Below are positions 3,636 to 10,948 of a DNA stretch of 11,916 nucleotides, piece by piece (the stretch's first letter is position 1; each line of letters begins with the position of its first letter). The notes below the pieces were generated by a model, which was given only the letters and a program-made list of their open reading frames with translations, did not search any database and was not told the origin of the DNA. Source of the stretch: Candidatus Rokuibacteriota bacterium. GTDB lineage: Bacteria; Methylomirabilota; Methylomirabilia; Rokubacteriales; CSP1-6. A program made the translations under genes and the position numbers. The stretch is from assembly GCA_016201575.1 (NCBI GenBank), contig JACQCN010000034.1, forward strand, positions 1 through 11,916, in the 5' to 3' direction.

Positions 3636-5093
<1,458 letters not shown>

Positions 5094-5103
5094 AGTGACT
5101 CCC

Positions 5104-5345
5104 GGCCGGTTGCCGAAAGAGGCCCATCTGCTTCGTTGGCTCGGTCGCTCCTCCCTGCGACGTACAACCTACTCGGGCCTCGCCTGGCGGCGGTCGTCCC
5201 GCCGACGCCGCTCAGCTCGAACACCCACGTACGTCTCAGTCGTCGCGATCCACTCGGGCCTCGCCTCGCGACGGGCCCCGTGCCGACGTCGCCCGGCTCG
5301 AACCCCCGCGCCGCCTCGCATCTGGGCCTCTGTCGGCAACCGGCC
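5104..5345. repeat. 242-bp element with 28-bp terminal inverted repeats between sufA and sufB
   Basis: The left arm (5104-5131, beginning GGCCGGTTGCCGA) and right arm (5318-5345, ending TCGGCAACCGGCC) are inverted repeats that pair at 25 of 28 positions. Between them lie two direct repeats of 81-bp period. Taking the element out would leave a 37-nt gap, like the other tight junctions in this operon, which argues for insertion of a discrete unit. There is no transposase and no clear target duplication. It could be a MITE-like non-autonomous element, an extragenic palindromic repeat, or a structured mRNA leader for sufB. In RNA of either strand the arms would close a large hairpin. A short T-run (5349-5353) follows the right arm on the plus strand. 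Confidence 0.75.
5171..5307. repeat. Two imperfect direct repeats, 81-bp period, inside the inverted-repeat element
   Basis: Positions 5171-5226 and 5252-5307 match at 45 of 56 positions, both starting ACTCGGGCCTCGCCT and both containing CTCGAAC near the end. Each copy can fold a 6-bp stem with a 13-nt loop: 5187-5192 with 5206-5211, and 5268-5273 with 5287-5292. The stems differ by a compensatory change, a G-C pair (5190/5208) in one copy and an A-T pair (5271/5289) in the other. Confidence 0.75.
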
Positions 5346-5372
5346 ACGTTTTTCAGTCTCCGCAGCGCGGGC

Positions 5373-5702
5373 TCATGCCGAGAAGGACGTGCCGCACCCG
5401 CACGTCGACTTCGCGTTCGGGTTGGTGAAGGTGAAGCCGGCCGTCAGCCCCTGCTTCACGTAGTCGAGCGTGGTGACGTTCAGGTACAGGTAGCTCTTGG
5501 CGTCGCACACCACCGTGACGCCGTCGATCTCCAGCTTCCGATCGTGAGGGCGCGGCTCGTTGTCGAACTCGAGCACGTAGGACATGCCCGAGCACCCGCC
5601 GCCCTTCACGCCCATGCGGAGGAACACGTCGTCCCCCAGGCTCTGCGCGCGCTTCATCTCCTTCACCTGCTTGATCGCCGCCTCCGACAGTTGGATCGCC
5701 AT
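5373..5702 (-). CDS. sufA: A-type iron-sulfur carrier, SufA/IscA/HesB family
   Basis: This 109-residue protein is the usual length for an A-type carrier, which accepts clusters from the scaffold and delivers them to apo-proteins. The three conserved cysteines are visible: Cys37 in KGGGCSGM, and Cys101 and Cys103 in the C-terminal CGCGTSF. The stretch LDYVKQGLTAGFTFTNPNAKSTCGCG is classic for the family. The name sufA follows from the operon; by sequence alone it could equally be called ErpA- or IscA-like. The ATG at 5702 has GGGAG six bases upstream and lies 22 nt after the regulator gene. It ends 27 nt before the right arm of the inverted-repeat element. Confidence 0.95.
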   Translation of the reverse strand: MAIQLSEAAIKQVKEMKRAQSLGDDVFLRMGVKGGGCSGMSYVLEFDNEPRPHDRKLEIDGVTVVCDAKSYLYLNVTTLDYVKQGLTAGFTFTNPNAKSTCGCGTSFSA

Positions 5703-8477: not shown

Positions 8478-9675
8478 GTGAAGTTCGGCATCTTCTACGA
8501 GCACCAGATCCCGCGGCCCTGGTCGGGGCGAAGCGAGTACGAGGTCTTCCAGAACTCGCTCGCCCAGATCGAGCGGGCGGACCGGCTCGGCTACGACTAC
8601 GCCTGGGTGGTCGAGCATCACTTCCTCGAGGAGTACTCGCACTCCTCCGCACCGGAAGTCTTCCTCGGCGCCGCCAGCCAGCGGACGACGCGCATCCGGC
8701 TCGGCCATGGCCGAGCGCGTCGCGACCCTCGACCTCCTCTCCGGCGGCCGCGTCGAGCTGGGCCTCGGCGAGGGCCAGGGGCCGGTCGAGCTGCATCCCT
8801 TCGGCCGCCGCGTCCGGGACAAGCGGGAGGTCTGGGAGGAGGCGGTCCAGGCGCTGATCCCGATGTTCACGCGCCAGTCGTGGGAGTGGCACGGCCGCTT
8901 CTTCGACTTCCCCGCCCGCAACGTGATCCCCAAGCCCTATCAGAAGCCGCACCCGCCGCTCTGGGTGGCCTGCTCGAACATCACCACGATCGGGAGCGCC
9001 GGCCGGTGGGGGATGGGCGCGCTCGGCTTCCAGTTCGTCTCGCCCGACGCCGCGCGCGCCTGGGTGAGCCAGTACTACCTCGAGATGACCCGGAACCTCG
9101 CCAAGCTCGCCGAGTACCCGACGAACGCAAACATCGCGATGGTGAGCGGCTTCATGTGCGCCGAGACCGACGAGGAGGCGCAGGCGAAGGCCGCGGGCTG
9201 GACGTTCTTCGTGTTCTGTCTGAGCCACTACGGCCGGCACGGCATCCCCGCGCCCGGCGACGGCAACATGTGGGAGCTCTACCGGGAGTGGCGCCACACG
9301 CCGAAGGCGCAGGAGACGCTGCGAAGGGGGCTCATCGGGTCTCCGGCCACGCTCCGGGCCCGGCTTCGGGAGTTCGAGGCCGCCCACGTCGATCAGGTGA
9401 TCCTCCTCAACCAGGCCGGCCGCACGACGCACGAGGACATCTGCGCGAGCCTCGAGCTGTTCGCCCGCGAGGTGATGCCGGAGTTCCACGCGCGCGACGG
9501 CGAGCAGCAGCGCTGGAAGGCCGACGTCCTCGCGGGTCGGGTCGATCTCGAGGAGGTCGACACGACGGCCCACACCGTCTACGCCCACCAGAACGAGGAC
9601 ATCGTCCGGCTCACGCCCGAGGAGCTGAAGCGGAAGATGGCGGAGAAGGAGGCGGGTCGACGCTCGGATGCCTGA
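8478..9675 (+). pseudogene. LLM-class flavin-dependent monooxygenase, broken by internal deletion or frameshift
   Basis: Two frames together encode a luciferase-like flavin-dependent oxidoreductase. The first (GTG 8478, GAGGG seven bases upstream) gives 78 family residues: MKFGIFYEHQIPRPW, LGYDYAWVVEHHFLEEYSHSSAPEVFLGAAS and TTRIRLGHG. The second, from about 8707 to the TGA at 9675, continues with AERVATLDLLSGGRVELGLGEG, HGRFFDFP and CSNITTIGSAGRWGMGALGF to a full C-terminus. Homologues usually have about 15 more residues here (a P..FNHP-type segment between LGHG and VAERVATLDL). The joint at 8707-8712 therefore looks like loss of about 44 bp, possibly between TGGC repeats. The C-terminal 322 residues keep normal codon use, so the break is recent or an assembly error. 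The substrate is unknown. Confidence 0.85.
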
Positions 9676-10948
9676 TCCCCGACCATTCGCGGGCCTCGAA
9701 GTCGTGGAGTTCGGGCAGTTCATCGCCGTCCCCTACTGCGGCCAGCTCCTGGCCGACGGCGGCGCCCACGTGATCAAGGTCGAGTCGCTCGAGGGCGACC
9801 CCGTGCGGCGACTGGCGCCGCTCGCTCCCGGCGAGTCGCGGCTCTTCGTGTGCCGCAACCGCGGCAAGCACTCGCTTCCCCTCGACCTCAAGCACCCTTC
9901 GGCCGCGCGCGTCATCGACGCGCTCGTCACCCGCGCCGACGTGGTGCTCACGAATCTGCGGCCCGGGCTCGGCGCCGAGCTGGGCCTCGACGCGACGACG
10001 CTCCTGGCCCGGCATCCCCGGCTCGTCGTGGGCAACGTCACCGGCTTCGGGCCCCGCGGCCCGGACGCCGGGCTGGCCGCGATGGACCTCGTCATCCAGG
10101 CCCGCAGCGGGCTCATGGCCGCATCCGGCCGGGTGGCGGACGGCATCCCGATCCCGCCCGACCCGCCCATCGCCGACTACGTGTGCGCCATGACGCTCGC
10201 CTTCGGCATCGCGTCGGCGCTCCTGCGCCGGGCCGTCACCGGGCGCGGCGGCGAGGTCGAGGTCTCGCTGCTGATGGCGGCGCTGGTCCCGCAGAACAAC
10301 GCGATGATCCGGGTGCACGAGGTGGACGGGCCCGCTCACGCCGGGGCGCTCGAGGCGCTCGCGCGGCTCAGGCAGGCCGGCGCGCCGTACGCCGAGCAGG
10401 TCGCCGTCACGCCCCAGTACCGCACGCCGGCGATGAGCGGCGTCTACTACCGGACCTACGCCACGAAGGACGCCGCGATCGCCGTGGCCTGCGTGAGCCC
10501 GGGGCTCCAGCGCGCCCTCATGCGGGCGGTGGGAATGACGGACGAGGCCCACGAGAAGCCTCTCGGGGATCCCGCGGCGGAGGCGCGCCACTACGCGGCC
10601 CTGCAGGCGCGCGTCGAGCCCGTGATCGCGTCCCGCGCCACCGCCGAGTGGAAGGCGACGTTCGACGCGCACGGGATCCCGGCGGCCGCCGTTAAGATCC
10701 CGCTCGAGCTGCTCGACGACGAGCAGGTGCTCGCGAACGGGATGCTCCACGACCTCGCGCATCCCGCCCTCGGACCCGTGCGCGTTCTCTCGACCCCGCT
10801 GCACCTGGACCGCGACGCCTTCGCGCCCGCCCCCGCCACGCCCCCGTTCGGCTCGGAAGCGCGGGACATCCTGCGCGCGCTGGGCTTCTCGGAGGTGGAG
10901 ATCGACCGGTTCCTTACCGACGGCGTCACCCGCCGCCGTTACGAGTAG
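9668..10948 (+). CDS. Class III (CaiB/BaiF) CoA-transferase
   Basis: This 426-residue enzyme of the CaiB/BaiF/formyl-CoA transferase family moves CoA between carboxylic acids through a catalytic Asp. The N-terminus GLEVVEFGQFIAVPYCGQLLADGGAHVIKVES, then RNRGKHSLPLDLKHPSA (63-79) and NLRPGLGAELGLD, are family signatures. Asp140 in AAMDLVIQARSG is the likely nucleophile, as in YDLxxQAxSG. HGIPAAAVKIPLELLDDEQVLANGML (335-360) is the conserved C-terminal part. The ATG at 9668 overlaps the monooxygenase stop by eight bases, implying coupled translation. It is the only intact gene of the three-gene cluster. It could activate an acid for breakdown; the donor and acceptor are unknown. Confidence 0.93.
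   Translation: MPDPRPFAGLEVVEFGQFIAVPYCGQLLADGGAHVIKVESLEGDPVRRLAPLAPGESRLFVCRNRGKHSLPLDLKHPSAARVIDALVTRADVVLTNLRPGLGAELGLDATTLLARHPRLVVGNVTGFGPRGPDAGLAAMDLVIQARSGLMAASGRVADGIPIPPDPPIADYVCAMTLAFGIASALLRRAVTGRGGEVEVSLLMAALVPQNNAMIRVHEVDGPAHAGALEALARLRQAGAPYAEQVAVTPQYRTPAMSGVYYRTYATKDAAIAVACVSPGLQRALMRAVGMTDEAHEKPLGDPAAEARHYAALQARVEPVIASRATAEWKATFDAHGIPAAAVKIPLELLDDEQVLANGMLHDLAHPALGPVRVLSTPLHLDRDAFAPAPATPPFGSEARDILRALGFSEVEIDRFLTDGVTRRRYE

Follow-up and report, generated by a model that had tools for sequence, protein, structure and literature searches.

A composite MITE-like repeat in the sufA-sufB spacer of a Rokubacteriales genome and its probable link to IS5-type insertion sequences

The suf operon and its long spacer

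The window, as the analysed stretch of 11,916 nt is called here, belongs to a Candidatus Rokuibacteriota genome (G000; 2.57 Mb, 77% complete) and carries on its minus strand a suf operon comprising genes for an Rrf2-type regulator, sufA, sufB, sufC, sufD, and sufS, identified by Pfam; the ABC ATPase was read as SufC and the class-V aminotransferase as SufS. The spacer studied is bounded upstream by sufA (5373..5702, minus strand), encoding an A-type iron-sulphur carrier (Fe-S_biosyn, Pfam PF01521), and downstream by sufB (3636..5093, minus strand; PF01458). The sufA stop codon is located at 5373-5375 and the sufB start at 5093, which confirms the gap of 279 nt reported in the first-pass annotation. 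The remaining gaps had been described as 12-27 nt or overlaps, and our own gene calls agree for regulator-sufA (22 nt), sufB-sufC (27 nt), and sufC-sufD (12 nt); a possible exception is sufD-sufS, with a gap of 50 nt and an uncertain start. Elsewhere in the window, a luciferase-like gene is apparently split over two frames near 8700 (8478-9773 and 8707-9675), which appears to be a frameshift or a sequence error.

The RNA-folding z was -6.1 for the whole spacer on the minus (sense) strand and -5.9 for the segment 5104..5345 on the plus strand. No U-run follows the long hairpin on the suf sense strand, and the sole terminator-like site lies on the antisense strand. A frame of 85 aa spans the repeat and is not called by our own gene caller.

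The strong fold and the position between sufA and sufB would suit a fixed leader or regulator acting in cis on sufB alone, but the window has no Rfam match at the gathering score, dozens of copies of the repeat stand beside other genes, and the repeat is absent from both comparable gaps. SufB matches at E ≤ 1e-100 were obtained in 15 other genomes, and in two of them sufA is adjacent (flank ≤1.5 kb). The sufA-sufB gap is element-free in both, as had been anticipated for relatives, being 30 nt long in G001 (same genus; SufB 91% identical) and 38 nt in G049 (SufB 86% identical). As the origin of the segment a sufB leader is refuted by the dispersed copies and the element-free gaps, and such an explanation is hardly credible.

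Composite structure of the repeat

The segment 5104..5345 had been described as a discrete 242-bp inverted-repeat element. Its 28-nt arms (5104-5131 and 5318-5345) do pair at 25 of 28 positions (89% complementary), as claimed; 25 matches is the best value for a 28-nt inverted repeat in 5095-5355, while 1000 dinucleotide shuffles gave a mean of 18.9 and a maximum of 23. The two internal repeats reported between the arms were also found, as direct repeats of 59 nt (5171-5229 and 5252-5310), 80% identical. The repeat is therefore real; its discreteness and its right boundary did not hold. Alignment with a plain copy from genome G002 (82% complete) revealed two gaps of 57 nt along with point changes, and on this alignment the 242-bp segment is a composite in which an unrelated repeat, B, interrupts a core, T, with two inserts of 57 nt each. 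The core folds back on itself and measures ~126-128 bp, and fuller copies add an outer right arm to it. B is a GC-rich unit of 57-65 nt, found inside T at a few places, alone, or in tandem; it is not a strong hairpin, with DNA-fold z from -1.2 to +1.1 for three units.

Read along the plus strand, the window copy begins with the left terminal arm of T at 5104..5131 (inverted repeat I1), where the plain copy aligns from 5105. It continues with the left inner core, aligned to the plain G002 copy and running from TTCGTTGGCTCGGTCGCTCCTC to GACGTACAA (5132..5167), and with the first B insert, 57 nt in the core loop (5168..5224), recognized from an alignment gap and direct repeat D1. The middle core at 5225..5245 contains GTACGTC, which pairs with GACGTAC at 5158-5164 (inverted repeat I16; alignment). 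The second B insert of 57 nt follows at 5246..5302, delimited by repeat analysis and an alignment gap; the boundaries of both inserts are approximate. The right part of the core with its terminal arm occupies 5303..5345, as seen in the inverted and direct repeats and the alignment. From the flank table of copies and the alignment, the element also extends beyond 5345 into a relic of the outer right arm, ACGTTTTTCAG (5346..5356), for which the family form is ...TTTTTCAGCATCCTGCTAG. The flanks of the window copy, CCCG and CAGC, contain no target duplication, and the copy has no stop codon in common with a gene. A 3-nt insertion common to both arms was considered and ruled out, since the alignment gave substitutions. 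Besides the composite make-up and the outer right arm, the first-pass annotation had overlooked the IS5-type partner and the stop-codon docking described below.

Copies and distribution of T and B

With the segment as query, G000 returned 82 pieces at E ≤ 10, of which 55 rows reached E ≤ 1.6e-4; these formed 40 clusters on 35 contigs, comprising 12 with T only, 9 with T and B, 18 with B only, and 1 with neither. The BLASTN comparison proposed earlier thus yielded many copies in the own genome and in relatives, with conserved ends and differing flanks. Genome G019 gave 22 BLAST matches, of which those listed correspond to the B part, and no T at E ≤ 1e-5. Because G019 has B matches without T, the two are separable families. 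At one locus (L028, G000:C21, 1371-1630) B alone is repeated in tandem between two genes, with a unit of 65 nt; at L013 and L024 it lies within a different flanking repeat. The T loop at L106, L108, L119, L230, and L231 (GWA2_70_23 / G011) holds another insert of ~60 nt, which differs from B and occupies approximately the site of the first B insert of the window.

A covariance model, R1, was built from 27 T cores. There were 33 candidate cores, from which L023 (spurious), L100 (cut by the contig), L106, L108, and L119 (loop insert), and L060 (unclear right end) were dropped; of the 27 remaining, L115 and L117 were left out, and L018 and L019 were added, giving the 27 cores of alignment A1. The class was searched at E ≤ 1e-5 with at most 36 candidates scored per genome, so counts near 36 mean at least that number. 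The model retrieved many more copies, which was the third check proposed earlier, and T was detected in 50 of the 95 genomes, G000 included. By family, it was present in 40 of 57 genomes of the window's own family (f1), in 7 of 7 of f9, in 1 of 1 of f2, and in one genome each of f8 and f5. Within the same genus, G002 has at least 32 copies, and G001 has none at E ≤ 1e-5. The existence of other copies and their spread beyond the sufA-sufB gap argue for a dispersed element, as do the empty gaps and the covariance model; the proposal of a MITE-like element without a transposase is thereby supported.

An exact 26-nt core pattern occurred in 28 contig stretches of three MAGs, all 28 titled Rokubacteria or Rokuibacteriota, which bears out the first-pass suggestion that similar repeats recur in such genomes. 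Because L058 is identical within L124 and L059 within L123, G002 corresponds to MAG AR9 and G011 to GWA2_70_23. Searches of plasmids with a G002 copy and of phages with the window copy returned only pieces covering 10-18% of the query (E 0.07-0.9), and a search of viral_contigs gave 27 matches. Two viral-labelled stretches (L280 and L281, IMG/VR 3300038557) stop ~100 nt past TAGCAGGCTGCTGAAAAAGG; perhaps assemblies or trims broke at the repeat. Among titles and opening lines of abstracts, in a collection largely outside subscription journals, no other account of the T family was found. T is a new family of a MITE kind that is already known.

Ends, target site, and an empty site

Flanks and stop codons were analyzed in 88 copies. 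Of 121 model rows, 40 were the weaker strand of a counted copy, and L192 (cut) and L198 (65 nt) were excluded; the resulting 79 rows were combined with the window copy and with 8 copies from the first G000 loci. They represent G000 (15 copies), G002 (29), G011 (20), and G078 (24); in the genomes other than G000, the copies were picked by best model score.

Plain copies end in TAGCAGGCYGCTGAAAAA, and the full element runs CTAGCAGGCYGCTGAAAAA ... TTTTTCAGCAKCCTGCTAG. With the flanks seen in four genomes, the full layout is CTA, then GCAGGCYGCTGAAAAAGGCCCATCTGC ... GCATCTGGACCTTTTTGAGCRGCCTG, a short spacer, and TTTTTCAGCAKCCTG followed by CTAG. The 4-mer at the left is CTAG in 34 of 88 copies, and TA is the dinucleotide on that side in 49. 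The outer right end is present in 55 of 88 copies, with TA next to it in 28 of those. Fifteen of these 55 copies have the same 4-mer on the left and the right, compared with 8.8 on permutation (P ~0.005), and the identical pairs include CGAG/CGAG, CCAG/CCAG, and CTAA/CTAA. Where TA stands on both sides (20 copies), agreement at the first base (15) is no higher than the 15.3 expected by chance, and at the last base (17, against the same expectation) it is weakly higher (P 0.10); the outer bases do not significantly favour a length of 4 bp over 2 bp. The flanks point to a 4-bp target duplication of the YTAR kind; duplication of a plain TA is possible.

One clean filled/empty pair was found: T is present at L240 in G011 and missing from the orthologous site TTCTAGGCGCCC of G072. 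The filled copy (G011:C163, 2072-2198) is positioned precisely on the TAG stop of a gene for a HesB/IscA-like iron-sulphur carrier. The target was the gene's own TAG, and the stop was kept; the second target copy reads CCAG, which we take for a mutated CTAG. This is also a second iron-sulphur gene with T at its 3' end. At the L220 site of G078, the element is absent in G073, G075, and G079, whose flanks are too diverged for the target to be read.

A transposase with matching ends

Ends matching those of T belong to IS5-type elements. The gene for an annotated 'IS5 family transposase' of a Neorhizobium galegae plasmid is framed by TAGCAGGCTGTTGAAAAA on one side and by an inverted near-copy of it on the other. 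In G053, a member of the window's own family, a 1344-bp IS has the ends TAGCAGGCTGCTGAAAAA and, inverted, TAGCAGGCTGCGGAAAAA; these outer ends match those of T with one mismatch at one side, and the interior of T is unlike this IS. The G053 transposase is 60% identical to the Neorhizobium protein, and both carry DUF772 and DDE_Tnp_1 and score well over the cut-off of NCBIfam IS5_4 (NF033581), with IS1182 second and under its own cut-off. The left end of the G053 IS supplies the TAG that closes an upstream frame, open for >150 codons and not called by our own caller. Among six plasmid loci examined, L292 of Microvirga also has such ends, 1.5 kb apart, and L287 of Paracoccus is described below.

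A search of 22 genomes for relatives of the transposase (E ≤ 1e-8) gave 5 matches in 3 of them, with T-like ends only on the G053 match. No partner transposase with matching ends was found in G000 at its 77% completeness, and none was seen in most of the T-bearing genomes searched, the assemblies of which are fragmented. At the five loci listed with T-like end pairs 400-3500 bp apart, the ends are those of separate copies flanking an ordinary gene call. Elements of ~165 bp with the same end sequence and other interiors are present at L287 (Paracoccus versutus plasmid pBEN) and L285 (IMG/VR), so the end motif of T extends beyond the class.

Two other partners were considered. The TA at the left end of more than half of the copies would agree with a MITE of the IS630/mariner type with TA duplication, similar to RUP, which passages of PMC2229807 tie to IS630-Spn1 and TA targets. 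However, the matching ends belong to IS5-type ISs, and 17 DDE_3 (PF13358) matches in 8 of 14 genomes include none flanked by T ends, which makes this origin very unlikely. At one of the 17 loci (L250) there is merely a copy of ~160 bp nearby. The TIRs proper to these genes were sought at 10 of the 17 loci, of which 3 were without a called gene, 1 was without a repeat, and the rest had repeats unlike T. A repeat of the REP/BIME type spread by RAYT, a Y1 transposase, would likewise be palindromic, intergenic, and mosaic with a second repeat, as T is. We consider it slightly less probable still than the IS630-type origin, since PF01797 had no matches in G000 or G002, 77% and 82% complete, and the ends and length of T fit an IS5-type partner.

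Overall, T is short and non-coding, lacks a transposase, and has TIRs, dispersed copies, and the ends of an autonomous IS, features by which it classifies as a MITE.

Docking at stop codons and the hairpin

Neighbouring genes were called by our own codon-usage script, trained and checked on the window genes only. A TAG or TAA stop is exactly common to the T copy and a neighbouring gene in 33 of 88 cases (left end 23, right 11, both 1), and in 7 more the gene is closed by a TGA lying 10-12 nt inward of the left end. Gene 3' ends facing a copy lie ≤40 nt from the core in 72 of 97 cases, compared with 17 of 74 for 5' ends, and divergent gene pairs surround T in 8 of the 83 copies with both neighbours called. 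One copy in 88 (L167), which was retained, is inside a called gene.

In 76 copies aligned to the model, 95.7% of the cells of the consensus hairpin are paired. Double changes were recorded in 18 of its 35 pairs, with 162 cells versus 61 in shuffles, counts that are inflated by relatedness. The two outer helices contain 60 doubly changed cells (25 from one pair), 14 cells changed on one side only, and 54 unpaired cells, including 20 at the outermost pair. When the arms of the window copy and the plain G002 copy were compared by eye, all five left-arm changes were mirrored on the right; the right arm has three extra changes that the left arm does not mirror; two of these create a pair and one breaks it.

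These data could mean that T was adopted as an RNA element, the hairpin of which processes or stabilises mRNAs, and that selection keeps its copies 3' of stops and in suf. The strong covariation along the whole hairpin, inner helices too, the excess of 3' over 5' ends near the core, and the rarity of divergent pairs agree with this possibility, and ERIC offers a precedent (PMC2229807, in part). But covariation in a DNA palindrome can occur without selection on RNA. Template switching is a way by which one arm of a DNA palindrome corrects the other, and the mirrored changes fit such correction as well as a selected RNA. Moreover, at the same loci 28 of 64 non-coding CTAGs (44%) are stop codons, as are 34 of the 77 T ends sitting on TA (44%), compared with 102 of 744 non-coding or stop TAs (14%). 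The excess at stops thus equals the CTAG background; a preference for CTAG suffices for docking, without any need to invoke selection for a 3' role. Neither G001 nor G049 has the suf copy, and in G001 the model found no T at E ≤ 1e-5. Adoption as RNA is accordingly a tentative reading that we rather doubt.

Proposed history of the suf copy

We consider it likely, with good confidence, that the suf segment is a decayed composite copy of the MITE T, with ends common to IS5-type ISs, tolerated in the operon. A transposase of the G053 type (DUF772 and DDE_Tnp_1) would have moved T in trans, with a preference for CTAG-like targets and with a short, probably 4-bp, duplication left behind. In these GC-rich genomes nearly half of the non-coding CTAGs are stop codons, and T would thereby land at gene ends; both of its ends regenerate TAG, so that the stop would be kept after insertion. 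In the suf copy, which we take to be old, the unrelated 57-65-nt repeat B appears to have settled twice. This copy is probably immobile because its terminal CTAGs are gone, and it would now be transcribed passively as a hairpin of ~250 nt between sufA and sufB. The close sufA-sufB spacing would likely be lost as a consequence, and the hairpin may perhaps provide a site for RNase processing. By analogy with ERIC in Yersinia, an effect on sufA:sufB expression is possible. A broader idea, which we regard as speculative and on balance doubtful, is that a stop-docking MITE, by its choice of CTAG targets and with TAG spelled by its ends on both strands, enters operons, essential ones too, without gene breakage, and that host operons such as suf use its hairpin, preserved over the full length of the element, to set the mRNA ratio of adjacent genes.

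T is a repeat family of an uncultured class, found in roughly half of its searched genomes, with ends that link it to an IS5-type transposase. It suggests how short mobile elements may come to lie at gene 3' ends in GC-rich genomes, where the target word seldom occurs in coding DNA but is frequent at stops, and where the ends of T would restore the stop. The own genome and G001 constitute a natural filled/empty pair for the effects of an insert inside an essential operon. The hairpin also calls for caution, as strong pair covariation in a DNA palindrome alone does not prove a selected RNA.

Comparison with known systems

Passages of PMC2229807 and PMC2759123 describe the enterobacterial repeat ERIC (IRU/RU-1; 127 bp) as a fold-back hairpin with TA ends and a TA duplication, intergenic and in some cases fused to gene 3' ends; in the former source its hairpin is reported to process or stabilise mRNA and to affect expression in Yersinia. 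T is of the same size class and is likewise an intergenic fold-back hairpin with TA ends. T has an IS5-type partner by its ends, whereas those passages establish no mover for ERIC, and no sequence relation was found when a T copy was compared with 20,395 E. coli records (E ≤ 0.01). RUP of pneumococcus and Correia/NEMIS of Neisseria are presented in parts of PMC2229807 as short MITEs with TIRs and TA ends, and a role in mRNA processing or stabilisation is proposed for NEMIS (PMC2229807 and PMC2759123, in part). The mover of RUP was deduced from ends in common with an IS, according to a section of PMC2229807. The mover of T is proposed here in the same way, from shared IS ends; the partner of RUP is IS630, whereas the ends of T are those of an IS5-type IS.

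BIMEs are mosaic repeats. T and B resemble them in that modules of two repeat families combine (the 9 clusters of T with B), and differ in that B is not a strong hairpin and no RAYT was found in G000 or G002. Insertion at a gene 3' end is mentioned for another MITE in a portion of PMC5896051. The duplication made by IS5 is given as 4-bp YTAR in an excerpt of PMC10359306. Unlike members of the IS5 family, T carries no transposase, and it is like them in having ends that match those of ISs with an IS5_4 transposase.
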